Source of the DNA: a virus
DNA length: 22,811 nt
Virus record (IMG/VR): IMGVR_UViG_3300008448_000701
Coordinates: 1-22,811 of that record
Strand: one strand, 5' to 3'
The translations under genes were made by a program, and so were the position numbers. The notes below the pieces were generated by a model. It worked only from the letters and a program-made list of their open reading frames with translations. It was not told the DNA's origin and did no database searches. Shown here in pieces: positions 987-21,537 of the stretch (its first letter is position 1; the number at the start of each line of letters is the position of its first letter).

Positions 987-1002
987 GGGGGCCGAAGCCC
1001 CC
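987..1002 (-). terminator. Stable UUCG-tetraloop hairpin after the 1010-1279 gene
   Basis: On the minus strand the sequence is GGGGGC-TTCG-GCCCCC, a perfect 6-bp GC stem closed by the very stable cUUCGg loop, 8 bases past the stop codon. No U-tract follows, so it is a weak classical terminator. A role in 3'-end stabilisation or partial attenuation is equally possible. Similar hairpins follow the first gene of the other two promoter cassettes. Confidence 0.55.
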
Positions 1003-1009
1003 TTCTGGT

Positions 1010-1279
1010 TTAGCCGATTAACAGGGCCACGTCCTTGACGTCTTCCATGTTCGCCAGCCGACCGTAGTTGCTGATGCTGTACTCAATCTGGGCAATTGTC
1101 GGCACGCCCAGCAAAGAGTAGTCCACGCCTTGAATGCACTGGTTCGTGCCTTCGTACCAAGTCAAGGTGACTTGGAAACCCTCAACGCTTTCAACGGTAC
1201 GCACTTGGGCTTCTGGGCTGTCGCTGGTGACCACCAGTTGACCGGGGCGGATGTCTTTGAGTTTGATTGCTTTTTTCAT
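1010..1279 (-). CDS. Small protein driven by promoter cassette 1, 89 aa
   Basis: The start is placed at MKKAIKLKDIRPGQLVV. The open frame extends 28 codons further upstream, but that stretch is the promoter and leader of cassette 1. The protein has an SH3/KOW-like beta look (IRPGQLVVTSDSPEAQVRTVESVEGFQVTLTW), with alternating strands suggestive of a small barrel. It stands alone between its own promoter and a UUCG hairpin, an arrangement suited to high, separate expression. The function is unknown, and nucleic-acid binding is only a guess from the fold impression. Confidence 0.75.
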   Translation of the reverse strand: MKKAIKLKDIRPGQLVVTSDSPEAQVRTVESVEGFQVTLTWYEGTNQCIQGVDYSLLGVPTIAQIEYSISNYGRLANMEDVKDVALLIG

Positions 1280-1299
1280 TTCGCTTTTCTTTCGCTGTA

Positions 1300-1327
1300 A
1301 CTGACTATGCGGTATTGCTGTGTCAGT
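1300..1327 (-). promoter_or_regulatory. 5' leader hairpin of cassette 1
   Basis: On the minus strand ACUGAC pairs with GUCAGU (6 bp). Inside is a 2-bp GC/GC helix, separated by a 3x3 internal loop (ACA/AUA) and closed by AAUACC. The stem begins about 7 bases after the -10 box, so it would be at or very near the transcript's 5' end. Cassettes 2 and 3 have the same architecture with compensatory changes. Confidence 0.6.
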
Positions 1328-1396
1328 GAAGTTAGTATAACACCAAATTAAACGATGCAACAACTATTTTAAAAATATTTCTAGGGACTTTCCCTA
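1328..1396 (-). promoter_or_regulatory. Promoter cassette 1 (leftward)
   Basis: The minus-strand -35 is TTGTTG (1358-1363) and the -10 is TATACT (1334-1339), with an 18-base spacer and an extended TGT before the -10. An inverted repeat GTATAA-N7-TTAAAC (1335-1353) overlaps the spacer and -10, as an operator would. Upstream lies TAGGGA-CTT-TCCCTA (1382-1396), a perfect 6-bp dyad, joined to the -35 by A/T-rich sequence. The whole block matches the region at 4332-4402 closely. Confidence 0.75.
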
Positions 1397-1401
1397 ATGC
1401 T

Positions 1402-1417
1402 GGGGGCTTTCGCCCCC
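1402..1417 (-). terminator. GAAA-tetraloop hairpin after the 1423-1737 gene
   Basis: On the minus strand the sequence is GGGGGC-GAAA-GCCCCC, a 6-bp GC stem with a GNRA loop, a few bases past the stop codon. It has no U-tract of its own. It sits between the cassette 3 gene and promoter cassette 1. Confidence 0.55.
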
Positions 1418-1422
1418 GCTCT

Positions 1423-1737
1423 TTAGAAGTTGTAGTCGTAGAAGCGGACGGGCTGGTCACTCAGGCCAAACTTGCGACCATGCTTGTCTTTCCAGACGCC
1501 TGACTTGCTCAAACGGATACGCACCACCGGGTTGGTGTCATTGCTTTTGATGAACCACTTCTGGTCGTGCTGGTTGGAGCAGTGGGCGCTGAAGCCACCA
1601 ACATGGAACTCCAGCTTCACGCTGTCATCGCGCTCGGCGTCCATCTCACGCACTTCAATGGTCTTGTCGCTGACTACCTTCACCACCTCGTAGGGGTTGA
1701 CATCGCTGTAGCCGTAGTGGTTTGCAAACTTGTTCAT
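1423..1737 (-). CDS. Conserved phage protein driven by cassette 3, 104 aa
   Basis: The protein starts MNKFANHYGYSDVNPYEVVKVVSDKTIEVREMDAE. The layout (NPYEVV, a KTIEVREM strand, then HVGGFSAHCSNQ and ending RKFGLSDQPVRFYDYNF) matches a small family I have met repeatedly in phages and prophages under hypothetical-protein names. The ribosome-binding site is AAGGA in an AGCGAAGGAACAGAG context. It is the only gene between promoter cassette 3 and the GAAA hairpin. The fold is probably all-beta. No catalytic motif is evident and the function is unknown. Confidence 0.8.
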   Translation of the reverse strand: MNKFANHYGYSDVNPYEVVKVVSDKTIEVREMDAERDDSVKLEFHVGGFSAHCSNQHDQKWFIKSNDTNPVVRIRLSKSGVWKDKHGRKFGLSDQPVRFYDYNF

Positions 1738-1759
1738 TTCTCTGTTCCTTCGCTGTTAG

Positions 1760-1780
1760 ACGACTGCACCTTGCTGTCGT
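1760..1780 (-). promoter_or_regulatory. 5' leader hairpin of cassette 3
   Basis: On the minus strand ACGAC pairs with GUCGU (5 bp), followed by an A-A mismatch, a GC/GC inner helix and an AAGGU loop. Compared with cassette 2 (CUGAC/GUCAG), the two outer pairs change as U-A to C-G and C-G to A-U. Both changes keep the pairing. Confidence 0.6.
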
Positions 1781-1859
1781 TAGTGTAATTCTAACATAAA
1801 CAAAGAGGGGGTGCGCAACCCCCTTTTGCAAATTATTTTGTAGGTAGTTTCCCCAATGC
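1781..1859 (-). promoter_or_regulatory. Promoter cassette 3 (leftward)
   Basis: An extended -10, TGT-TAGAAT (1788-1796 on the minus strand), lies just upstream of the leader hairpin; TACACT is an alternative -10 five bases further down. No good -35 is seen. An inverted repeat GTTAG-N7-CTAAC (1779-1795) covers the -10. The upstream element TAGGTAGTTTCCCCAATGC (1841-1859) is a degenerate copy of the TAGGGA dyad of cassettes 1 and 2. A terminator hairpin (1806-1824) is inserted between the two parts. Confidence 0.6.
1804..1830 (-). terminator. Rho-independent terminator embedded in cassette 3
   Basis: On the minus strand AGGGGGU pairs with ACCCCCU across a 5-base loop, preceded by an A-run and followed by UCUUUGUUU. 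It would end leftward transcripts coming from the 1916-2230 gene just before cassette 3 restarts transcription. Confidence 0.65.
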
Positions 1860-1901
1860 CCTTCTGGCGGCAATTTCGCGCTGGAGGATGTGCCAGAAGG
1901 G
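1859..1901. other. Isolated 10-bp inverted repeat (stem-loop)
   Basis: CCCTTCTGGC (1859-1868) and GCCAGAAGGG (1892-1901) form a perfect 10-bp stem with a 23-base loop. It lies between the stop of the 1916-2230 gene and the cassette 3 upstream element. No U-tract follows on the minus strand. It could be a transcript-end structure or a protein-binding site. Confidence 0.5.
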
Positions 1902-1915
1902 GGACTTGATTGGTT

Positions 1916-2230
1916 TCAGTTTGGCTTGCCTTCCATCTTCAGGTGGGCCAACAACTCATCAAGCGAGAACGTGGCGTCTTTGTATTTCCAGATGTACTGC
2001 TCAATCTCGTTCAGGACGTAGCTGTAACCCGCGTCAAAGCCCCTGATGTACTCAGACATCACCGCCTCGCTTTGAGGCTTCTGGCAGGCTTTGTGGGCGT
2101 CCATGAAAGCATCGAACTGCGACAAGAGGTCGTCCAATGGCACAGGCATCTTGATGGCCTGCGTGAAGCCACAGTGCTGGCACTCCATGCGCTGGGTCTG
2201 GCTGTTGGAAATAATGTGGTCGGTGTTCAT
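1916..2230 (-). CDS. Small phage protein with CxxC, 104 aa
   Basis: The N-terminal region carries MECQHCGFTQAI, a single CxxC knuckle like a half zinc ribbon. The rest is helical (LLSQFDAFMDAHKACQ, then EYIRGFDAGYSYVLNEIEQYIW). Segments like YIRGFDAGYS recur in small phage proteins of unknown function. The start overlaps the stop of the upstream 213 aa gene by 4 bases. It is the last gene before the terminator in cassette 3, so it ends the transcription unit that begins at cassette 2. Confidence 0.7.
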   Translation of the reverse strand: MNTDHIISNSQTQRMECQHCGFTQAIKMPVPLDDLLSQFDAFMDAHKACQKPQSEAVMSEYIRGFDAGYSYVLNEIEQYIWKYKDATFSLDELLAHLKMEGKPN

Positions 2231-2868
2231 GCTGTCTCCTCTGCTGGTTCGTAGGTCAACTCAAAGATGTCTGGCTTGCACGGGTAATGCTCACCCTTCA
2301 CACCAGTGATGATGTAGTCGCCGGGGGTAACGATGTGACCGCCTTCGAGAGTCTCAATCCAAAAAATAGGCATACCACTCATGGTGGCCTCAACCACCTG
2401 CGGGTGGTCACCCATCTTGAACCACTGGGTGGCCTCAATGACCACGGGTTTCTTGCGGTACTTCATGCCTTTGTTTTCTGAAAGTTGGCCTGCCAATAAT
2501 TCGCACTCTCGCACACAGTAATCCAAAGACTTGACCATGTCATCAGTAAAGTGATGCCTGAACATTCCCTTGTCATGCAATTCTTTGTACTCGCCCTGCA
2601 TGAGTTCTGGGTCGTTTGCATCACCAAGGTGCGCACAGTCGTAACCAAGCCACCAAAGTCCAGCCGATGGTGCAGGGTAGTCAGCCTCGCCGCCCGCGTA
2701 AGTCAAGCCGCCATGCACGTCGGCAGGCACGTCGTCATACCCCTTGCTGTGATGCTTGTTGTTTGCTGGAACGCCAACGTAGCCACAACGATGACCTGCT
2801 GGGTGGATGACCACCACGGCACGCAGGCCCGAACCAGTCACCCAGTCTTTTTCAATGCTGAAGTTCAT
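2227..2868 (-). CDS. Two-domain phage protein of unknown function, 213 aa (apparent fusion)
   Basis: Residues 1 to about 130 form a module with HPAGHRCGYVGVP, GYDDVPADVHGGLTYAG and WWLGYDCAHLGD, known to me as a widespread phage hypothetical. Residues 135-213 start MKYRKKPVVIEATQWF and end with a PGDYIITG...GEHYPCKPDIFELTYEP block, which is normally a separate protein of about 80-90 aa. Here the two are joined in frame by QLSENKG with no stop codon. The internal Met (2464-2466) has only a weak AAAGGC upstream, so a second, shorter product is possible. It is coupled by ATGA overlaps on both sides. The biochemical role is unknown. Confidence 0.8.
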   Translation of the reverse strand: MNFSIEKDWVTGSGLRAVVVIHPAGHRCGYVGVPANNKHHSKGYDDVPADVHGGLTYAGGEADYPAPSAGLWWLGYDCAHLGDANDPELMQGEYKELHDKGMFRHHFTDDMVKSLDYCVRECELLAGQLSENKGMKYRKKPVVIEATQWFKMGDHPQVVEATMSGMPIFWIETLEGGHIVTPGDYIITGVKGEHYPCKPDIFELTYEPAEETA

Positions 2869-3056
2869 GCTGTCACCTCCTGACGTGCCTCTTGGCGTCC
2901 ACGCTCGACGAAGTAGCGTGCGTCGGTGGTGTCGGTGATGTGTTCCTCTTGGAGCATCTTGCGGATGCCCTCCGCCACTGCACGGGCCTTGTCGGCACTG
3001 GTGGCCTTCTCGTATTTGTAGCCCGCGTTGATGTAGTCTGCTTGTGCGTGTTTCAT
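2865..3056 (-). CDS. Small helical phage protein, 63 aa
   Basis: The protein reads MKHAQADYINAGYKYEKATSA and continues with charged helices (ARAVAEGIRKMLQEEH, ARYFVERGRQEAR). A ribosome-binding site GGAGAACACC precedes the ATG. The stop overlaps the ATG of the 213 aa gene. It has no membrane segment or cysteine pair. I recognise the style of small phage proteins with a YxxG(Y/R) helix but not a named family. Confidence 0.65.
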   Translation of the reverse strand: MKHAQADYINAGYKYEKATSADKARAVAEGIRKMLQEEHITDTTDARYFVERGRQEARQEVTA

Positions 3057-3066
3057 GGTGTTCTCC

Positions 3067-3402
3067 TTACCAGTTTGATTCGATGGTCTTCAACATATCG
3101 GCGACCTTTGCTGATATGTCCGTGAACTCTTCCAACTCTGCCGCTGGAACGTAGCCTTTGTCCCCGCCCTCGGCGTAGTCGCCTTGCACAAGGATGCGGT
3201 CGCCAGCCCAATGACCGATGAGGTCATGCTTAGGGAAGTCGCCGCCTCCGCGCCCGTTGCTGTTTGCAAGCAGGGCGAACAGCGCAGTGGCAGTGCTACC
3301 GATGTGACCGACCTGCTCGTACAACTTGAGGCCGTTGTCGATGGCGTGGGGGTTGATGCGCTCTTTTTTGTCTACGTTGTAGACCTCGTGATATTGACCC
3401 AT
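3067..3402 (-). CDS. MGQYHxV-type conserved phage protein, 111 aa
   Basis: The start is set at MGQYHEVYNVDKKERINPHAID, with GGAGAACATC upstream; an earlier in-frame Met at 3444 would run into the upstream gene. The N-terminal MGQYH motif followed by a KKE(R)I-HP pattern is a recurrent phage family of unknown function that I recognise. Later segments are GSTATALFALLANSNGRGGGDF, GHWAGDRILVQGDYAE and an acidic helix. The WAGDR...GDYAE block resembles known homologues. The role is unknown. Confidence 0.75.
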   Translation of the reverse strand: MGQYHEVYNVDKKERINPHAIDNGLKLYEQVGHIGSTATALFALLANSNGRGGGDFPKHDLIGHWAGDRILVQGDYAEGGDKGYVPAAELEEFTDISAKVADMLKTIESNW

Positions 3403-3412
3403 GATGTTCTCC

Positions 3413-3775
3413 TTAGCCGATGTGAATGATTTGGAAGTGGTCACGCATAAAGTTCTGTGCGTCCATCTCGTCGCTGGCTACCAAGCCGCCCAGAATCATG
3501 TTGTAGCAGTCACGCTTGGCGTGGTAGTAGTCGGCGTCACGCTCACCTTGACGGAAGTTGTGCCACTGGTTGGGCTTGGCGTTGCGCTCGATGTCGGCCT
3601 TCAGAGAATGCTCTGAGTAGTAGGCAATGAAGCCCTGCAAGTTGTAGTGGGCAATGAAGCCAGAGGCCAAGTACAGGAAGTTGTAGCCTGTCTTGTTCAA
3701 CTTGTTGATGTCTTTGCAGGCGGCAAGGACGTTCTTTGCAATGATTTGCTTTTGGCGCTGTGTTAAGGGAGTCAT
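3413..3775 (-). CDS. Phage protein of unknown function, 120 aa
   Basis: The start is set at MTPLTQRQKQIIAKNVLAAC; a Met 14 codons earlier would overlap the upstream stop. The upstream context GAAAGCGAATTGAAA is the purine-rich start signal seen before several genes here. The protein is helical, with aromatic-rich segments (YNFLYLASGFIAHYNLQGFIAYY) and a charged end (YYHAKRDCYNMILGGL). The hydrophobic stretch is interrupted by His, Asn and Gln and is probably not membrane-spanning. The function is unknown. Confidence 0.7.
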   Translation of the reverse strand: MTPLTQRQKQIIAKNVLAACKDINKLNKTGYNFLYLASGFIAHYNLQGFIAYYSEHSLKADIERNAKPNQWHNFRQGERDADYYHAKRDCYNMILGGLVASDEMDAQNFMRDHFQIIHIG

Positions 3776-3801
3776 TTTCAATTCGCTTTCGTTTTGGTTG
3801 A

Positions 3802-3960
3802 TTAACTGTTGAGCCACTCTTCGTAGGTCTTGAGCGGTTCACCGTTGTTGGTGATGTCGCCGCCCTGACCGTTGTCTGCGCAGTGCAGATAAATTTGGTA
3901 CTCCATGTCGTTGGAGCCGCGTGCCTTGGTTTGCCATGTATCGGATGTTTCGAGTTGCAT
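3802..3960 (-). CDS. Small acidic phage protein, 52 aa
   Basis: The protein starts MQLETSDTWQTKARGSND and ends EPLKTYEEWLNS, preceded by GGAGAACATC. The spacing to both neighbours is short. An alternative start at the internal Met (MEYQIYLHCADNG) would leave 34 aa. The terminal TYEEWLNS resembles endings of other small phage proteins. The function is unknown. Confidence 0.6.
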   Translation of the reverse strand: MQLETSDTWQTKARGSNDMEYQIYLHCADNGQGGDITNNGEPLKTYEEWLNS

Positions 3961-3975
3961 GATGTTCTCCAATGA

Positions 3976-3989
3976 GGGGCCGAAGCCCC
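3976..3989 (-). terminator. UUCG-tetraloop hairpin after the 3995-4288 gene
   Basis: On the minus strand the sequence is GGGGC-TTCG-GCCCC, a 5-bp GC stem with a stable UUCG loop, 5 bases past the stop and without a U-tract. It is the third example of a tetraloop hairpin directly after a cassette-driven gene. Confidence 0.5.
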
Positions 3990-3994
3990 GTTGA

Positions 3995-4288
3995 TTAGCG
4001 TGTGGTGACTTTGACGCTGAACACAGCGGTGGTTTTTGTGTGGCGGGCAATCTGCTCGGCAGTCGCGCCCAACTCAGCCAACAGGGCTTTGTTGTCAACC
4101 ACGGAGCGGTTGCTCTCGATGTATGTTGCTTTGAAGAGGTTGCCTTCAACCACTTTGTCGCCACCAGCAGAGGCGGACTCTTTGATGCCGTCTTTGATGG
4201 CGTCGGCTTGCTTGGTCAACTCAGCAATCTGAGCCAAGAGGTTACCCAGTACGTCGACTTGGGTGAGTTGGATGTCGTTTGATTTCAT
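3995..4288 (-). CDS. Coiled-coil phage protein driven by cassette 2, 97 aa
   Basis: Residues 1-37 form a heptad-like helix (VLGNLLAQIAELTKQADAIKDGIKE). Then comes a beta part (VVEGNLFKATYIESNRSVVDNKALLAEL) and an ending TKTTAVFSVKVTTR. This layout, helix then NLFKAT then TKTT-V-VKV, matches a phage family of unknown function I have seen often. The leader contains the cassette 2 hairpin and the start context GAAAGCGAACC-ATG. Its own promoter and a 3' hairpin suggest an abundant product. It has no catalytic motif; DNA or protein binding is a guess. Confidence 0.75.
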   Translation of the reverse strand: MKSNDIQLTQVDVLGNLLAQIAELTKQADAIKDGIKESASAGGDKVVEGNLFKATYIESNRSVVDNKALLAELGATAEQIARHTKTTAVFSVKVTTR

Positions 4289-4309
4289 GGTTCGCTTTCG
4301 TTTGGTTAC

Positions 4310-4331
4310 CTGACTGCTTGATTGCTGTCAG
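4310..4331 (-). promoter_or_regulatory. 5' leader hairpin of cassette 2
   Basis: On the minus strand CUGAC pairs with GUCAG, followed by an A-A mismatch, a GC/GC inner helix and an AAUCAA loop. It begins about 8 bases after the -10 box, so it would sit at or near the 5' end of the transcript of the 97 aa gene. Confidence 0.6.
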
Positions 4332-4402
4332 TGATGCTAGTTTAACCCCAAATTAAACACCGTCAACAACTTTTTCAAAATATTTTGTAGGGACTTACCC
4401 TA
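4332..4402 (-). promoter_or_regulatory. Promoter cassette 2 (leftward)
   Basis: The minus-strand -35 is TTGACG (4361-4366) and the -10 is TAAACT (4339-4344), with a 16-base spacer. A perfect inverted repeat GTTTAACCCCAAATTAAAC (4340-4358) covers the spacer and -10. The upstream dyad TAGGG-N5-CCCTA (4388-4402) overlaps the stop codon of the HNH gene. The region is nearly collinear with cassette 1, including the AACAAC and ATATTT segments. Confidence 0.75.
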
Positions 4403-4690
4403 AGTGTTGTTTTGTAGCAATCCCGCAACATCTGCCAGCAGGTCATCCTCATCGAATCCCCAGTGCTTAGGGAACCCCTTCGTGCCAAGCCCGTGGAGGC
4501 CCGTCTTGCCCCTGTGATGCTCTGGGCATAGTGGGATGACGTCCATGTGGCTTGAGCGCCTTCCAGCCCCTGTTCCTGACCTTTTGTGATGGAGTTCTGC
4601 GGGCGTCCCCTCGTACCCCATACGTCGGCACACAGCACAGCCCAACTCAGCCACCGCGTTCATGTGCTTTTTCTCTTTGAGCGTGGTCAT
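4400..4690 (-). CDS. Small HNH nuclease, Ref/RecA-dependent-nuclease-like, 96 aa
   Basis: The zinc and HNH elements are in order: GCAVCRRMG (residues 18-24), AELHHKRSGTGAGRRSSH (31-48), IPLCPEHHRG (52-61) and GLHGLGTKGF. The pattern CxxC, then HH-x(n)-G-x-G-x-R-x-SH, then PLCxxHHR matches phage Ref-type proteins (recombination enhancement nucleases, P1 Ref being the best known), which cut DNA together with RecA filaments. At 96 aa it is the bare catalytic core. Its start overlaps the stop of the preceding microprotein, and its stop lies inside the cassette 2 upstream dyad. A generic HNH endonuclease is the alternative. Confidence 0.75.
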   Translation of the reverse strand: MTTLKEKKHMNAVAELGCAVCRRMGYEGTPAELHHKRSGTGAGRRSSHMDVIPLCPEHHRGKTGLHGLGTKGFPKHWGFDEDDLLADVAGLLQNNT

Positions 4691-8741: not shown

Positions 8742-9376
8742 ATCACCCTCCGACCAACGGCTGGCGTGCCTGCGTCGTCTTCCCAACGACGTTGGTTGAT
8801 GTACGTCAAAGGTGCTGGCTCGTAGCCGCCTGTCCACTGCTCAGACACCTTCAGGATGTTGACCTGAGCGATGATGACGTCAGCTACAGAGTCCAACCCA
8901 GCCTTGGCCCATTTCTTCTGGCACTCTGACTTTGCGACCTTGCGTTTGGACGAAGGCCAACATTGCCAGAACTCGTCGAATTTCGACGATGTATTTATAT
9001 TCTTCTTCTGTATCTGTATCTTCTTAGGGTTATCGTTCGCTTTCGATTCGGTTTTCGATTCGGTTTTTGACGGCCTGCCGCCTCGCTTTCCGAGTTGTCG
9101 ATTATTTTCGACTTGATGTTGATACTTGGTAACTTCGACATGGCAACGATTGTTGAAATACCCTGTTTCGGTACGTTCAAAAAACTCATCCAAAACCGAT
9201 TCGGTTATGTCCAAATCAAGACGAATCTTGCGGGCCACAGCCTCGGTGTCAAGCGGAATCATCTTCTCGCTCATGTAGTAAAGGTCAAGCAGGCGTCGGT
9301 ACGCCAAGTCCTCTGCATCGCTGAGATGCACTGTGTGGGTGAGGTAGTCACCAATGTGAAATTTGTACCATATCAT
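8738..9376 (-). CDS. DUF1376-containing replication protein, 212 aa
   Basis: Residues 1 to about 95 are a DUF1376 domain: WYKFHIGDYLTHTVHLSDAE, YRRLLDLYYMSE, then DTEAVARKI and GYFNNRCHVEV. A Lys/Glu/Ser linker contains a short repeat (KTESKTESK), and a C-terminal part reads FDEFWQCWPSSKRKVAKSE and APLTYINQRRWEDD. That end is the FxxFWxxYPxK...PxTYLxxxRWxD pattern of phage replication and helicase-loader proteins. The gene sits directly before the primase-like and helicase genes, so a loader or initiator role is likely. The start is coupled to the HTH gene stop (ATGA). Confidence 0.82.
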   Translation of the reverse strand: MIWYKFHIGDYLTHTVHLSDAEDLAYRRLLDLYYMSEKMIPLDTEAVARKIRLDLDITESVLDEFFERTETGYFNNRCHVEVTKYQHQVENNRQLGKRGGRPSKTESKTESKANDNPKKIQIQKKNINTSSKFDEFWQCWPSSKRKVAKSECQKKWAKAGLDSVADVIIAQVNILKVSEQWTGGYEPAPLTYINQRRWEDDAGTPAVGRRVI

Positions 9377-9585
9377 TTCGCTGTCTTTCCAAAAATGTCG
9401 GGCCGAAGTTCAGCCCTCTTCACTTTCCTGCCTGTGTGCAACTCGATGTCACGAGCCAGTTCGGGACTAGGCAGTCGTCGCCCCGTAACAATCAATGAAA
9501 ACCACGTCTTGCTGATGCCCAGCGTGCGGGCCATAGCAATCATCGTCCCCCTCGGTTTGTCGGAAAAATATTCGGTTAGAGTCAT
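9373..9585 (-). CDS. Small Cro/YdaS-like HTH regulator, 70 aa
   Basis: The protein reads MTLTEYFSDKPRGTMIAMAR, then TLGISKTWFSLIVTGRRLPS, a clear helix-turn-helix of the Cro/CI-like type, and ends in an ELHTGRKVKRAELRPD segment. YdaS-type regulators have this layout (xLxxYFxxxxG...LAxxLGIS...ISxWxxGxRxxPxxxA). It is the first gene of the leftward arm and faces the recombination operon across a 103-base control region. It probably controls both directions. No integrase is visible, so it need not mean lysogeny. Confidence 0.78.
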   Translation of the reverse strand: MTLTEYFSDKPRGTMIAMARTLGISKTWFSLIVTGRRLPSPELARDIELHTGRKVKRAELRPDIFGKTAK

Positions 9586-9609: not shown

Positions 9610-9677
9610 ATGTTACACTAAAAAAAATTGTTGTGCAACACCAGATTAAACATGATACACTACACCCAGTTTAACTT
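9610..9677. promoter_or_regulatory. Divergent control region with palindrome and operator-like half
   Basis: The leftward promoter for the HTH gene has -35 TTGCAC (9633-9638) and -10 TAACAT (9610-9615), with a 17-base spacer. A near-palindrome TGTTGTGCAACA (9629-9640) overlaps that -35. The segment CAACACCAGATTAAAC (9636-9651) matches the right half of the operator dyads in cassettes 1 and 2, and CACCCAGTTTAAC (9662-9674) is a weaker second copy. The rightward promoter is less clear; TTGTGC with a TGATAC/TACACT -10 is possible. Confidence 0.6.
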
Positions 9678-12071: not shown

Positions 12072-12257
12072 ATGGACATCCATCTCATCAGATACCTAGC
12101 AAAGCAATATGAAGAAGGCAGGCGCGACCCAGAGGCTCTTCTGGCCCACGCTTGCCTTGAGGCATACGAGCAGGGGTTTGATGATGGGGTCAATGAGGCC
12201 GAAGAGCGAATGGCCCAGACCCAGATGCTCTTGATGTTCACCGCTGGAAGCGCGTAA
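12072..12257 (+). CDS. Small phage protein, 61 aa, unknown function
   Basis: The start is set at MDIHLIRYLAKQYEEG, 2 bases after the preceding stop; the open frame extends back into that gene, but without a start signal. It is helical and acidic (AYEQGFDDGVNEAEERMAQT), ending MLLMFTAGSA. The TAA is followed by the terminator. The last gene of the rightward operon. Confidence 0.65.
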   Translation: MDIHLIRYLAKQYEEGRRDPEALLAHACLEAYEQGFDDGVNEAEERMAQTQMLLMFTAGSA

Positions 12258-12261
12258 AAAA

Positions 12262-12285
12262 AGCCCCCCCGATTAAAGGGGGGCT
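12262..12285 (-). terminator. Rho-independent terminator between convergent operons
   Basis: AGCCCCCC (12262-12269) pairs with GGGGGGCT (12278-12285) across an 8-base loop. On the minus strand the stem is followed by an uninterrupted T7 run, making it a strong terminator for the leftward virion operon. On the plus strand no U-tract follows, so its effect on the rightward operon is weaker. Confidence 0.85.
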
Positions 12286-12315
12286 AAAAGGAGAGTGGCA
12301 ACTGCTCCTCGAAAT

Positions 12316-16978: not shown

Positions 16979-19797
16979 TATTTCGCTCCTTTGAGGTATG
17001 AGGTCAGCGCCTTGGTCTTGGGCGGAATTTTATTGATTGGAGCCGAGCGCTTGTGGGCGCGGATGCCCTCGCGGAACTTGTCCAAAGCCTGAGCGCCCGC
17101 CTTTGTTGAGCCGTTACCAATCTGGGCCACGGTCTCGGCGTCAATCACATACTCACCGTCCGCCAGCATAGCTGGGATGTCGTCCGACTGTCCATCGCCA
17201 GCGCCATGCACAGCCGCACCCTTGCGGAAGTCCATGCGGCCCTGAGTCAGTGGCACGTTGGAAACGTGAGGCAAGCCGCCCTTGCGCATTGGGGGAGCCA
17301 TGCCCTGCTGTTGAGGCATCATGCCTTGCTGTGGCATCCCTTGTGGCATTTGTTGCGCCATTTGAGGAGGCTGTTGCTGTGGCAGACCCTGCTGTTGTGC
17401 TTGCTGAGGGGGTTGCTGTTGACCAATCTGAGGCATCATCTCAGGAGGGTTCATTGGGGGTTGCTGACGCATTCCCAAGTTCGCCAAGATGTCCGCAGGC
17501 TGACCGAAGGTGTAGTACGAGGCCACAGGGGTAGCCATCGAAGACAGGCCACCAGAGGCCATTTTGGGAGCCTCTTCTTCAGCGGCAACTTCTTCGTAGC
17601 CGTAGTCGCCTTCGTTCACGGGGTTGTACCCCGGGGCATTCAGGTTCTTCAGCAACTCTGCGTTTGGCGTGTAGTCGCCATCGCTTGTGCCGTAGTCTTC
17701 GTAGCCCACAAAGCGAGTTGGGCCAATTCCAAAATCTGTGGTGCGTGGGTTGATGAGGCCAACCTGCGACATATCCAAACCTTGGTTTTGCGCACCAGTA
17801 CCACCGCTAAAGTCTTGACCAAGCAACGTGGCAACCAAAGCGCCAGCGCCAGCCGCGCCTGCGGTTGTGCCAAGCGCACCAGTAATACCAGACAGGGCGT
17901 CACTACCTAAGCGGGTCAATGTGTTAACACCACCAGTCAAGGTGTTACCCAAGTTTTCATACCAAGGACGCTCACCGCCACCAGAGGATGTGATGTCTTC
18001 TGGAACTTCAGCCGCACGATAAAACTCGCCGTTCCTGAAAATGTTGCCCAGCGAATCAGTGTCGTAGTACGGCTCTTCCTCATCCGTTGAGTAAATGGCA
18101 TCAGGACTGACGTTGCTGATGTCTCCAGTGTCTGGGTCGGTGGAGTACAGGTACTCGTCCGTCATCATGTCATAGGTGAAGTTGCCAATGGTGTATGTGC
18201 CATCGCCGTTATCAACGTATCCGCCGTCTTCAAATTTAGCGACTCCGCCTTTTTTCATCATAGTAATCAAGCCTCCACGTTTGCCGTATTCTTCATCTTC
18301 GTATGGTATGTAATACGACGAGTCGTCATTGTTTACAGCGTAGTCGCTGTCCCAATAAATATCTTCTGGGTAATCGGTATAGTCCGATGAGTCGTTGTAG
18401 ACGCTGTAGTCTGTGGAGTCATCACTGAGAACGCTGTCATCAAGCGACGCCCAATAGCTGTCGTAATTGAAATCAGTGTCCCACGTCCCGTCTTCACCCA
18501 TAGTCCAAACTGCACCAGTTGCATCATCAACCCAAGTGTTGTCAGCAACGGGGGTGTCTTCGTAGATGTCCTCGTCTACTTCTGCGGCACGGTAAAGGTC
18601 ATACCCACCATCCGCAGTTGAAATGTAAACATTACCCAATGAGTCTTCAAAATATTCAGGCTCAAAACCAGTTGAACTGTCGTCTGTACCCACTGTGTTT
18701 GGGGGGAAGGCGTCAATATCTTCATCGACCTCTGCGGCACGATACAACTCATACGTCCCATCAGGCATCGTCTTGTAGACATTGCCCAAGGAGTCTGTCA
18801 TGTATTCGTCTTCGGCAACCTCTGCGGCTCGATAAAGTTCGGAAGTGCCATCAGGCATGGTTTTATAGACGTTACCCAAAGAGTCGGTTGTGAACTCGTC
18901 TTCAGGGACTTCAGCGGCGCGATACAAAACTTCAGAGCCATCAGGCATGACCTGATAAACATTGCCTTTTTCGTCTGTGATGAACTCATCATCAGCGGGG
19001 GGCGCTGGAGGGCCGACATAGTTGGGGTCTTTAGGGTCAGTGACAGGCGGCTTCACCACGCTTGTTGGGGGAGCCTTTGGTTTTACCGCCTCAGCTTTTG
19101 CTTTTGCGGCGGCATCCGCCTTTGCCTTTGCGGCGGCAGTTGCAGTAGCGGCGGCGGCTTTGTCTTTTGACGTGGCGCTGGCTAACGCTTTCTTTTCAGC
19201 GGCAATTTGCGCTGGTGTTTTTGAGACGTTTGGCTTGCCAGTAATTTTGTCAATCAACAGTTTTGTGCCAGCACCAATCGCCGCGCCCGTGAGTGCGTTC
19301 ACCACCTTACTGGTGGTCGAGTTTGGATTGCTGACATTTGGCTTGACCGTAGGTTTTGCCGCGCCTGTACCAGTTGTGGTTTTGGTGGTCGGTGTAGTCG
19401 TGGTCTTGTTTGTAATCGTCGGTTTTGTCGTCGGCGTGGTTTTAGACGTCAGCGTTGTCTTGGGGGCAAGCGTCGTCTTAGGTGTAGATGATGTCTTCGT
19501 GGTCAAAGATGTCTTTGGAGTCAAAGTAGTCTTTGGCGTCGAAGACGTGCTTGTTGTCAGCGTAGGCTTGGTTGCAGGGTTGACAAACGTCGAGGTGAAC
19601 GGGCGGTTGCCAACGCCAGATTTGATGTTGGTATTGGAGCCGCCAGAGCCACCAGCAGAAGTCAAAGAAGACGCGCCCCTGTCAGAGATGAAGGGGGTAT
19701 TGTCTACACCGCGAATGACGCTACCCAGCGGTGCGCGGTCAACTCCCCTTGCGTCAGGAAGTTGTCTGCTTGATGTGCGTTTTTTTAGAATAGCCAT
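16978..19797 (-). CDS. Giant modular virion protein with tandem repeats, 939 aa
   Basis: The parts in order are: a basic N-terminus; a Thr/Lys/Pro linker (78-145); a glycine/hydrophobic segment (168-183); an Ala/Lys helix (197-240); 30-residue acidic repeats (271-360, 381-410, vestige 577-600); an acidic Tyr/Asp/Ser stretch (440-505); a KKGGVAKFEDGG motif (515-526); a YTIGNFTYD beta segment; a hydrophobic Gly/Ala patch (631-660); a Gln/Pro/Met-rich run (775-836); and a terminal module with GDGQSDDIPAMLADGEYVI (868-886). That terminal module is widespread in environmental phage virion proteins. The chain looks largely extended. A role as an internal or tail-associated protein is inferred from the operon. 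No catalytic site is seen. Confidence 0.7.
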   Translation of the reverse strand: MAILKKRTSSRQLPDARGVDRAPLGSVIRGVDNTPFISDRGASSLTSAGGSGGSNTNIKSGVGNRPFTSTFVNPATKPTLTTSTSSTPKTTLTPKTSLTTKTSSTPKTTLAPKTTLTSKTTPTTKPTITNKTTTTPTTKTTTGTGAAKPTVKPNVSNPNSTTSKVVNALTGAAIGAGTKLLIDKITGKPNVSKTPAQIAAEKKALASATSKDKAAAATATAAAKAKADAAAKAKAEAVKPKAPPTSVVKPPVTDPKDPNYVGPPAPPADDEFITDEKGNVYQVMPDGSEVLYRAAEVPEDEFTTDSLGNVYKTMPDGTSELYRAAEVAEDEYMTDSLGNVYKTMPDGTYELYRAAEVDEDIDAFPPNTVGTDDSSTGFEPEYFEDSLGNVYISTADGGYDLYRAAEVDEDIYEDTPVADNTWVDDATGAVWTMGEDGTWDTDFNYDSYWASLDDSVLSDDSTDYSVYNDSSDYTDYPEDIYWDSDYAVNNDDSSYYIPYEDEEYGKRGGLITMMKKGGVAKFEDGGYVDNGDGTYTIGNFTYDMMTDEYLYSTDPDTGDISNVSPDAIYSTDEEEPYYDTDSLGNIFRNGEFYRAAEVPEDITSSGGGERPWYENLGNTLTGGVNTLTRLGSDALSGITGALGTTAGAAGAGALVATLLGQDFSGGTGAQNQGLDMSQVGLINPRTTDFGIGPTRFVGYEDYGTSDGDYTPNAELLKNLNAPGYNPVNEGDYGYEEVAAEEEAPKMASGGLSSMATPVASYYTFGQPADILANLGMRQQPPMNPPEMMPQIGQQQPPQQAQQQGLPQQQPPQMAQQMPQGMPQQGMMPQQQGMAPPMRKGGLPHVSNVPLTQGRMDFRKGAAVHGAGDGQSDDIPAMLADGEYVIDAETVAQIGNGSTKAGAQALDKFREGIRAHKRSAPINKIPPKTKALTSYLKGAK
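17992..18069 (-). repeat. Displaced copy of the 30-aa repeat
   Basis: Residues 577-602 read YYDTDSLGNIFRNGEFYRAA then EVPED. It retains DSLGN(V/I) and YRAAEVPED but has lost four central residues. It lies about 165 residues beyond the main array. Confidence 0.75.
18568..18990 (-). repeat. Tandem 90-base (30-aa) repeat array
   Basis: Three copies follow exactly every 30 residues (271-300, 301-330, 331-360) and a fourth after a 20-residue insertion (381-410). The consensus is DE(F/Y)xTDSLGNVYKTMPDG, then (S/Y)ELYRAAEVxE. The DNA copies differ at many third positions, so they are not very recent duplications. Confidence 0.85.
19363..19566 (-). repeat. Thr/Lys/Pro low-complexity linker
   Basis: Residues 78-145 of the giant virion protein consist of imperfect 5-8 residue units of the type TPKTTLxxKT. 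This should be an extended, flexible and positively charged linker. Confidence 0.8.
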
Positions 19798-19800
19798 TTT

Positions 19801-21537
19801 TTATCCACCATTCTTTACAAGCGAAGTCAGACTTGCAATGTCGGTTATAGGAGTTAAGTTTGCTCCGCTTGCCAAAGTCTTTGCAGGCGCGGCACGAGCA
19901 ACTTTTTTGACCTGTTGTGTTGGCGCGGCCTTCTGAATTGGAATCAGCTTTGCCACGTCCATGCGTTGTGGTGGAGGCGCTTTGCGTGCAACAGGCTTGG
20001 CAGTTGCCATTTGCAAACCACCAGCAGGTCTTGGCGCAGGAGCGCGACGCACTGGTTGCTTTTTCTGCGTCAAGGTTTGCTTGAGCAAGTTGCCAACAGT
20101 AGCGACCATAGGCTTGGTGAAGTCTGTGGGTTTGATGCCCATAGAGGTTGCCATTTTTGCTTCAGGCGTTGCTTGTTCTGCTTGCGCAACGGCATTCAAA
20201 CCACCAGCGGGTTGGTCAGAAGCCAAGCCAGCAGTCAACAGGTCTTGAGCAACAGGAGCCTCAGACACAACAGCAGGCTTGGAAGTGTCCAAGTCGATTG
20301 CTGGTACGGAAGCGTCAGCCAGAGCATTCAAGCCGCCCACAGGTTCTGTTGATGCAACAGCAGGAGCCTCGGATGGAAGACCCTCAGCAATGTCAATCAC
20401 GCTTTCAGGGACGTCTTCGGTTCCGACGGGTGCTTCAGCCAACAAGGTGTTGCTAGATGCTGGAGTCTCTTCGCCAAGCAATTCAGCAAAATCAGTTTCG
20501 CCTTCAGCTTGAGGGGCGTCCGCAAAAATTTCACCGCGTCGAACTTCAATCTCAGGAAGAGATTCAGAGTCAGGAAGAATTGCAATCTCAGACGTTGGGG
20601 TCTCGCCAGTGTATGAAGATGTTGCGTTGTTTACACTTTCTGTTTCATCAGCGTCAGCCAACACGCTTGCAACATCAAAAGTGCCTGCGTCGTTTTCCAC
20701 GCCGTAACCAGAGACGGTGACTTGACCAACAACTTCATCAGGGATACCAGCGCCAGTTGTTGCTACGCTGACTGGTTCGCCTTCTTTGTCTTTCTCGTTC
20801 CAATCAGTTGCGGCGGCGCGGAACTGCTTATCAATTGATTCGTTGACTTCACGAACGCCATAGTCAACACCTGAGCCAACCGCGCTGTTTGCGAATGCAG
20901 TTTCAAAGTCGCCTCGACCAGTCACTTCAGCAGTGATGCCAGATGAGAATGCTCTTGTGCCTGCGTTGAAGACTGCGGTTGCGTCTTGCAAGTCCAAGCC
21001 GCTTTCCATAGCCAACTCAATGACGTCAGGCTTGACGTAGCTTGCAACTTCGCTGACACCGCCTGAGACCATGCCGCCAGTAAATCCACCAGCAAAACCG
21101 TCTTCAAAATCGCCGCCTTTAATTTCTGCAATTGTTCCGTTGACCAAGCCCTTACTGATTGAAGAACTTGCAACTTGAGAGAATGTTTCGTTGAAACCAG
21201 CCTCAATGAAAGTAGACGACACAGTAGAGGAAATTGCACTGCCAACTTGGGGAGCAAAGTACGCCGTACCCATTGACAGGGCAATGTCCTCAAGGTCACC
21301 GCCGCGTGCGGCAGTGATTGCGCCCATCGTGACGGCAGGAGGTATGCCGACAAAACTGCCAGCAACAGAGAGCAGGACAGGGAGCGGGTCGTCAATTACC
21401 GCTTGAACAACGTCACCAACTTTTTCGACAACGTCACCGACAACGTCAACAACGTCTTCGACGACGTCACCAACGGCTTCAAATACGTCGCCAACAGCTT
21501 CAAAGGCGTCTTCAACGATACTGACAACTGCGCTCAT
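19801..21537 (-). CDS. Membrane-active, repeat-containing virion protein, 578 aa
   Basis: Residues 10-47 are a 7-residue repeat (FEAVGDV, VEDVVDV, VGDVVEK...), predicted amphipathic helix. Then comes a Gly/Ala/Ser-rich section with repeated GGDxED(I/G)A units (GGDLEDIALSMGTAYFAPQV, GGDFEDGFAGGFTGGM, GRGDFETAFANSAVGSG), a style seen in proteins that insert into membranes. The C-terminal half is Ala/Pro/Glu-rich with P(A/V)GGL(N/Q) motifs at 399, 443 and 505, and ends in a basic Pro/Ala/Lys tail. It probably acts in DNA ejection. GGGAATAAGC precedes the ATG. No catalytic motif is seen. Confidence 0.7.
   Translation of the reverse strand: MSAVVSIVEDAFEAVGDVFEAVGDVVEDVVDVVGDVVEKVGDVVQAVIDDPLPVLLSVAGSFVGIPPAVTMGAITAARGGDLEDIALSMGTAYFAPQVGSAISSTVSSTFIEAGFNETFSQVASSSISKGLVNGTIAEIKGGDFEDGFAGGFTGGMVSGGVSEVASYVKPDVIELAMESGLDLQDATAVFNAGTRAFSSGITAEVTGRGDFETAFANSAVGSGVDYGVREVNESIDKQFRAAATDWNEKDKEGEPVSVATTGAGIPDEVVGQVTVSGYGVENDAGTFDVASVLADADETESVNNATSSYTGETPTSEIAILPDSESLPEIEVRRGEIFADAPQAEGETDFAELLGEETPASSNTLLAEAPVGTEDVPESVIDIAEGLPSEAPAVASTEPVGGLNALADASVPAIDLDTSKPAVVSEAPVAQDLLTAGLASDQPAGGLNAVAQAEQATPEAKMATSMGIKPTDFTKPMVATVGNLLKQTLTQKKQPVRRAPAPRPAGGLQMATAKPVARKAPPPQRMDVAKLIPIQKAAPTQQVKKVARAAPAKTLASGANLTPITDIASLTSLVKNGG
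21397..21510 (-). repeat. 21-base tandem repeats encoding heptads
   Basis: About five 21-base units with recurring ACGTC trinucleotide patterns encode residues 10-47 of the 578 aa protein (DAFEAVG, DVFEAVG, DVVEDVV, DVVGDVV, EKVGDVV). The unit length equals one heptad of an amphipathic helix. Confidence 0.75.

Follow-up and report, generated by a model that had tools for sequence, protein, structure and literature searches.

A widespread composite promoter cassette in front of unrelated small genes of phages

Introduction

Phage morons are single accessory genes with their own promoter and 3' hairpin, and to our knowledge they do not, as a rule, have one conserved promoter cassette in common. 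T4-type phages reportedly carry promoter early stem-loops (PeSLs), an element attributed to Arbiol et al. 2010 and Comeau et al. 2014. According to general knowledge and to PMC4503421, these are repeated cassettes of promoter and stem-loop that stand between small accessory genes and are tied to modular shuffling. Here we describe a cassette of about 117 bases that occurs in three copies, all on the minus strand, in an uncultivated virus fragment of 22,811 bases (IMG/VR record IMGVR_UViG_3300008448_000701; this whole stretch is called the window, and all positions are those of the window). Each copy consists, in this order, of a TAGGG dyad, an A/T tract, a sigma70-type promoter with an overlapping operator-like dyad, a leader hairpin and a start signal. 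A first-pass annotation of the same DNA had described this shared order for three regions, and the parts are indeed present in all of them.

The cassette resembles the PeSLs in repeating intergenically between unrelated small genes (37 families, 1-5 copies per contig) and in having a minority variant, class B, that joins a terminator-like hairpin and a promoter. It differs in that only this minority has a promoter and a terminator-like stem-loop in one motif, in that it belongs to another phage type (none of the window proteins tested, the structural arm not being among them, gave a T4-type match, and a DnaB-like helicase, DUF1376 and a YdaS-like switch are found instead), and in that it adds a TAGGG dyad upstream, an operator within the cassette and, past the promoter, a hairpin in the 5' leader. 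Like a moron, each module of cassette and gene comprises a single accessory gene, its own promoter and often a 3' hairpin; unlike morons, the modules have one conserved promoter cassette in common. By analogy, the cassette would work like a PeSL and a moron combined, yet it departs from the PeSLs in two of the features tested.

The SAS/ESAS elements of Cluster K mycobacteriophages (PMC3203893) are likewise repeated and compound, with an inverted repeat and a start-associated sequence (SAS) before non-structural genes of different families, and they are conserved among relatives and nearly absent from the host. However, the SAS is a translation-start element of 13 bp whose 17-bp inverted repeats stand at varying distances, whereas the cassette is longer, bears a promoter and has an operator and a covarying hairpin; the 13-bp sequence GGGATAGGAGCCC was not found within a few bases of the start codon, and the cassette start signal is of the AGCGAAAGCGAA type. 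The 5'-terminal stabilizing stem-loops of ompA and papA (Emory et al. 1992 and Bouvet and Belasco 1992, as cited in PMC3997798) resemble the leader hairpin in that the stem sits at the very start of the RNA and hardly any bases there are left unpaired, but the leader hairpin belongs to a repeated mobile phage cassette, and its stabilizing role is putative. In the lambdoid prophage CP-933P, YdaS acts as a Cro analogue whose targets include a distant promoter (PMC8630535). There, as in the window, a YdaS-family protein is encoded beside a switch with repeated operator sites, but the operator proposed here lies in 1-5 dispersed single-gene promoters and its half-site differs. No description of the cassette was found in Rfam (no match up to E 5) or in the searchable literature, most subscription papers being outside the search.

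Sequence and distribution of the cassette

Regions upstream of the 97 aa gene, which follows one of the window copies, were compared for 80 loci, and almost all contain the full cassette or its greater part. A profile hidden Markov model (HMM) built on these regions of relatives found 259 de-duplicated copies on 110 IMG/VR contigs, with 1-5 copies per contig and 258 of the 259 on the strand of the helicase gene, against only 4 matches, all below 8 bits, in the reversed-sequence control. The genes behind the copies fall into 37 blastp clusters, that is, unrelated families, with a median product length of 97 aa and 81% of products at most 150 aa long; they include genes for a protein with an ArdC N-terminal domain, a DUF932 protein and a DUF6011 protein. 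The contigs are related, so that neither the counts nor the p-values given here are independent. The distribution strongly supports the earlier proposal of a dispersed phage regulatory element serving selected small genes, and the suggested search for further copies in relatives, whose absence would have spoken against the element, did find them. On this sequence evidence we consider the cassette a real, widespread and composite promoter cassette, defined by its sequence, conservation, structural constraint, spacing and distribution, with the functions proposed below. Standing before so many unrelated small genes, it looks like a reusable, swappable device for the expression of accessory genes.

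In the window, the three pairs of copies give global alignment scores of 59.5, 29.0 and 32.5, whereas the best of 2000 shuffles per pair reached 17.5, 12.0 and 13.0. The two copies that had been described as nearly collinear, at 1280-1396 and 4289-4402, align with 83% identity over 83 bases (E 3e-16 within the record), and the genes that they precede are unrelated, as had been claimed: the 89 aa and 97 aa products have no similarity, and neither is meaningfully like the 104 aa product behind copy 2. The HMM, from whose training copy 2 was excluded, finds this copy with 37.6 bits (E 2.8e-9), and copy 2 is therefore clearly the same element, though more distant. Ordinary independent promoters, alike through common hexamers and A/T tracts, would also account for parts that are each familiar on their own. 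With collinearity over about 120 bases, 259 copies versus a near-empty control, compensatory changes in the stems, and a common dyad and spacing, this explanation is exceedingly improbable, and we regard it as refuted by the controls.

The features of the three copies, class A being the majority form, are:

1280-1396, minus strand: cassette copy 1 (class A), upstream of the 89 aa gene; HMM 90.1 bits
1382-1396, unstranded: TAGGG dyad TAGGGAAAGTCCCTA of copy 1, at a fixed promoter distance in relatives
1335-1353, minus strand: operator-like dyad GTTTAA-N7-TTATAC of copy 1, overlapping the -10 (TATACT, 1334-1339)
1300-1327, minus strand: 5'-terminal leader hairpin of copy 1, predicted +1 at 1327; -8.8 kcal/mol, z -2.3; compensatory changes
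1010-1279, minus strand: 89 aa gene after copy 1; no Pfam or PHROG match
987-1002, minus strand: 3' hairpin GGGGGC-UUCG-GCCCCC of the 89 aa gene
1738-1855, minus strand: cassette copy 2 (class B), upstream of the 104 aa gene; HMM 37.6 bits, outside the training set
1841-1855, unstranded: degenerate TAGGG dyad TGGGGAAACTACCTA of copy 2
1806-1824, minus strand: GC hairpin AGGGGGTTGCGCACCCCCT of copy 2, its loop holding the -35-like TTGCGC, with CTTTGTTT after the hairpin; -12.1 kcal/mol; class B recurs in relatives
1783-1801, minus strand: operator-like dyad GTTTAT-N7-TTACAC of copy 2, containing the -10 TAGAAT
1760-1780, minus strand: leader hairpin ACGAC...GTCGT of copy 2; -8.1 kcal/mol, z -1.0
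1423-1737, minus strand: 104 aa gene after copy 2; phrog_19789 (family without assigned function)
1402-1417, minus strand: 3' hairpin GGGGGC-GAAA-GCCCCC of the 104 aa gene; -16.8 kcal/mol for 25 nt
4289-4402, minus strand: cassette copy 3 (class A), upstream of the 97 aa gene; HMM 104.1 bits
4388-4402, unstranded: TAGGG dyad TAGGGTAAGTCCCTA of copy 3; it overlaps the stop codon of a RecA-dependent-nuclease-like gene that lies upstream (4400-4690)
4340-4358, minus strand: operator-like dyad GTTTAA-N7-TTAAAC of copy 3, overlapping the -10 (TAAACT)
4310-4331, minus strand: leader hairpin CTGAC...GTCAG of copy 3; -9.0 kcal/mol, z -2.3
3995-4288, minus strand: 97 aa gene after copy 3; phrog_6244 (family without assigned function)
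3971-3989, minus strand: 3' hairpin GGGGC-UUCG-GCCCC (plus flank) of the 97 aa gene

A purine-rich start signal of the AGCGAAAGCGAA type, which has no classical Shine-Dalgarno core, precedes many start codons of the window (e.g. 1280-1296, 4289-4300, 3777-3800 and 946-980).

The leader hairpin at the predicted RNA 5' end

In 44 distinct leaders, 97.5% of the cells of the five-pair leader stem are paired, with changes on both sides at four of the five pairs (the stems include CTGAC/GTCAG, TCGAC/GTCGA, TCAAC/GTTGA, CCAAC/GTTGG, CGGTC/GACCG, ACGAC/GTCGT). The covariation is 0.521, compared to 0.171 for shuffles (0 of 500 reached 0.521) and at most 0.074 for slid partners. Of the class A leaders, 81 of 131 have a stem that starts 7 nt past the -10, as do 10 of 17 in class B, an offset held although the -10 has shifted relative to the operator between the classes. 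Assuming that transcription starts 7 nt after the hexamer, the stem would begin at +2; overall, its start is predicted at +1 or +2, which for the predicted transcription start would fall within the range of about 0-4 nt typical of 5'-terminal stabilizing stem-loops. The mean folding z is -2.25 for the leaders of full cassettes, compared to -1.05 for other TAGGG promoters and -0.38 for random promoter-like sites. Because hardly any 5' bases would be left unpaired, the message should be protected from pyrophosphate removal and from decay that depends on the 5' end; RNA ends of this kind are expected to be poor substrates for the removal of pyrophosphate (principle reviewed in PMC3997798).

The frequent AGCAAU in the loop, and the position of the hairpin immediately ahead of the start signal, could instead point to the site of an RNA-binding regulator, or to part of an antitermination or attenuation device, rather than to a generic 5' stabilizer. 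However, stem sequence, loop size and loop sequence vary widely while the pairing and the +1 position are constant, no Rfam family matches, and single small genes with a hairpin close behind hardly need antitermination. We therefore consider such a regulatory site unlikely and favor 5' stabilization.

The TAGGG dyad upstream of the promoter

The dyad (TAGGG-N4/5-CCYTA or a near variant, followed by the A/T tract) is centered 35.5-36.5 nt ahead of the operator in 84 of 105 unique cassettes, i.e. near -63. A pattern scan of IMG/VR with TAGGGNAANNNCCTANAAAATA gave at least 120 contigs, versus 5 for the reversed pattern. Among the matches listed, 39 of the 127 dyad sites in fetched loci belong to full cassettes, and many of the other dyads stand before different sigma70-type promoters; overall, 74 of 129 dyads have a promoter after them, whereas the same holds for 399 of 3000 random positions. 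In the same listed matches, from phages chosen by the dyad alone, the distance between the dyad center and the -35 is bimodal, with 18 (25 sites) and 27-29 (33 sites). The peaks at 18 and 28 bp differ by one turn of the helix, as would be expected if a protein acts from a single face of the DNA. These loci, with a GC content of 35 to 60%, share many open reading frames, so that not all are independent lineages.

The dyad also folds as RNA (-7.0 kcal/mol) and often directly follows the upstream stop codon, so that it might be a 3' hairpin protecting or terminating the upstream transcript, and no site for a DNA-binding activator. We find this quite unlikely: there is no U-tract, the distance to the -35 is fixed and helically phased, the A/T extension lies on the promoter side, and variants such as TAGGGTTTTCCTTA pair poorly. 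Judged from sequence, the TAGGG dyad and its AAAATA flank may rather be a phage-specific activating site, used in many freshwater phages at two helically equivalent distances from the -35, a tentative reading to which we give just under even weight; the phased site would then point to an undescribed transcription activator of freshwater phages.

One intergenic copy of the dyad occurs in the isolated 76-kb Limnohabitans phage DC31. The dyad is almost absent from 301 genomes of the likely host's family and 369 of its class. A host regulon was considered and rejected: in 30 genomes of the genus (with one mismatch allowed) and about 670 of the family and class, the matches were limited to phage contigs of one metagenome-assembled genome (MAG), one place in an apparently unrelated region of another genome, and a similar site of 22 bp. 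This last site, TAGGGTAAA[C/T]ACCTATAAAATG, precedes a BoxC-like gene in each of two Limnohabitans genomes (L151 and L155); these are the only host sites that closely resemble the phage dyad in a promoter position.

A candidate operator shared with the early switch

The GTTTAA-N7-TTANAC dyad overlaps the -10, its right half being TTAAAC, TTATAC or TTACAC; a left half GTGTAA is always paired with TTACAC (11 of 11). In class B, the -10 (TAGAAT, TACAAT) lies inside N7 and the dyad is kept around this separate -10, which argues that the operator is more than a -10. Two further features of the window are relevant here:

9373-9585, minus strand: YdaS/Cro-like helix-turn-helix (HTH) protein, 70 aa; Pfam YdaS_toxin 1.9e-9; phrog_35 transcriptional repressor 5.4e-8
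9633-9675, unstranded: divergent switch with GTTTAA/TTAAAC half-sites, beside the YdaS/Cro-like gene

The 70 aa YdaS-family gene is thus positioned at a divergent switch with repeated half-sites, at about 9.6 kb, which is a fourth site related in part to the cassettes. In 57 switch regions next to the HTH gene the half-site reaches 15.7 per kb, about 40 times its density elsewhere in the same contigs (0.38 per kb). Many half-sites outside the switch regions fall in cassettes, and cassettes or the switch account for 5 of the 8 in the window. As YdaS of CP-933P acts on a distant promoter too (PMC8630535), it is reasonable to infer that the 70 aa protein may repress the cassettes through the candidate operator. 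The first-pass annotation had the element multiply expression; the overlap of operator and promoter would argue for regulated rather than simply strong expression.

Class B and the 3' hairpins

About 16 unique relatives and copy 2 have an inverted repeat with T-rich DNA behind it, and the -35 is found next to this repeat or within its loop; the arms of the repeat vary yet pair (GGGGG/CCCCC, CCGCAAA/TTTGCGG, TGGCAAGA/TCTTGCCA). An automatic filter flagged 23 of 164 copies as class B, of which about 16 are true; in several others the flagged repeat is just the TAGGG dyad. The class A majority has no terminator-like hairpin at the promoter. Class B looks, from its sequence, like a terminator fused to a promoter, the layout that gave PeSLs their name. 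A terminator inserted in the middle of the copy at 1760-1859, as previously assumed, is not what we find: this copy is a class B variant of the same length, whose GC hairpin (1806-1824) overlies the -35 region. The near-equal lengths from dyad to ATG (117, 118 and 114 bases) imply that nothing was inserted in copy 2 and, together with the recurrence of class B in relatives, led us to reject the insertion.

Of the cassette genes, 68 of 196 have a short-looped GC stem behind them, versus 38 of 1101 other genes (odds ratio 15, p 2e-34; about 10 times likelier), and a GC tetraloop hairpin, absent from the earlier annotation, follows each of the three window genes. Since most 3' hairpins have no U-tract, they may protect 3' ends rather than terminate.

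Exchange of modules between phages

The contigs L014 and L087 have the upstream flank (0.96) and the cassette (0.98) in common before unrelated genes; copy 2 and L011 have a common flank (0.93) and cassette (0.83) before different genes, the 104 aa gene and an ArdC-like gene. In 38 contig pairs the upstream flank is common and the downstream genes are unrelated, and in 231 the gene is common and the upstream flank unrelated, the cassette usually traveling with the gene. Window copies 1 and 2 are among the clear cases of such swaps (same flank and cassette with an unrelated gene, or same cassette and gene with an unrelated flank). These pairs are compatible with mobile promoter cassettes selected mainly as homology for gene shuffling, as proposed for T4 PeSLs, with expression control being secondary, and breakpoints where homology starts have 4.9-fold odds at cassettes over other long gaps (p 8e-8). 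Compared to other gene starts, the odds are only 1.8-fold (0.239 at cassettes versus 0.148, p 0.001), there is no excess of homology stops, and copies within a contig are barely more alike than copies between contigs (0.698 versus 0.674). Moreover, pairing kept despite sequence change, phased spacing and a common operator imply selection for function. Shuffling as the main function is thus improbable in our view, and we prefer expression control; given the clear swaps, the modest enrichment for homology starts and its absence for stops, we treat movement as real and not as the proven main function. A strong claim of a recombination hotspot was dropped, as the initial 3.5-fold value for homology starts fell to 1.8-fold against other gene starts and stops had no effect.

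Proposed mode of action

We consider it fairly likely that the copies serve as 5' control regions, each heading a self-contained module of expression that is activated through the dyad, repressed by the Cro-like protein and yields an mRNA protected by its 5' hairpin. The module would comprise the TAGGG-dyad promoter, the 5' hairpin, one small gene and often a 3' GC hairpin, with the ordinary sigma70-type promoter read by host RNA polymerase. A putative protein at the dyad, centered near -63, would stimulate the promoter from one face of the DNA, as the helical phasing suggests, and the phage YdaS/Cro-like protein, bound to GTTTAA-N7-TTANAC over the -10, would silence the module along with the early switch, as the shared half-sites suggest. 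The RNA would start at the hairpin or one base ahead of it, leaving almost no unpaired 5' end, and the position and compensatory changes of the hairpin suggest that the message would resist pyrophosphate removal and 5'-dependent decay. In class B (e.g. 1738-1855), the terminator-like hairpin with the -35 in its loop would also block upstream read-through. Modules pass between phages, the cassette often with its gene. Activation, repression, stabilization and timing are thus all proposed from sequence.

Several observations weigh against this proposal, in addition to the relatedness of the contigs. GTTTAA overlaps the promoter, and part of its conservation may reflect the -10, an objection tempered by class B, which keeps GTTTAA where it is not the -10. 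Some relatives have no recognizable dyad, most 3' hairpins are without a U-tract, homology stops are not enriched at cassettes, and other gene starts are breakpoint hotspots as well.

If the proposal holds, small accessory genes, including the ArdC-like anti-restriction gene, could join or swap in the early arm of a phage without rewiring, each module arriving with a putative activator site, a candidate operator for the resident repressor, a protected 5' end and often a 3' hairpin. The ArdC-like cargo (L077 and L148, cluster 7) suggests that the cassette may mark anti-defense genes, and its profile can flag accessory genes and new anti-defense candidates in metagenomic phages whose proteins are unrecognizable.

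Host and genomic neighborhood

The leftward arm of the window encodes a DnaB-like helicase, a CHC2-type primase domain, a DUF1376 replication protein and numerous small genes. IMG/VR is rich in close relatives of this phage, whereas no close relative came up in a nucleotide search of isolated phages. Limnohabitans, or a freshwater betaproteobacterium close to it, is the probable host. Among homologues of the 97 aa protein with a host assignment, the nearest belongs to Limnohabitans phage DC33; in addition, a Limnohabitans MAG includes a phage contig with the cassette, and the upstream dyad is present in Limnohabitans phage DC31. The isolated phage DC33 has the 97 aa homologue and no cassette. 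The cassette-bearing MAG contig is phage-like from end to end and gives no evidence for integration, so that prophage status was rejected.

DC33 (PQ492659.1, L149) is a 39-kb tailed double-stranded DNA phage that GenBank taxonomy files under Inoviridae. At a convergent gene end of the window (12255-12296), a sub-threshold Rfam match to Betaproteobacteria_toxic_sRNA (26.9 bits, gathering threshold 50) is probably just a hairpin terminator. Direct repeats of 90 nt and about 21 nt lie within large genes of the structural arm, at 18569-18988 and 21390-21518.

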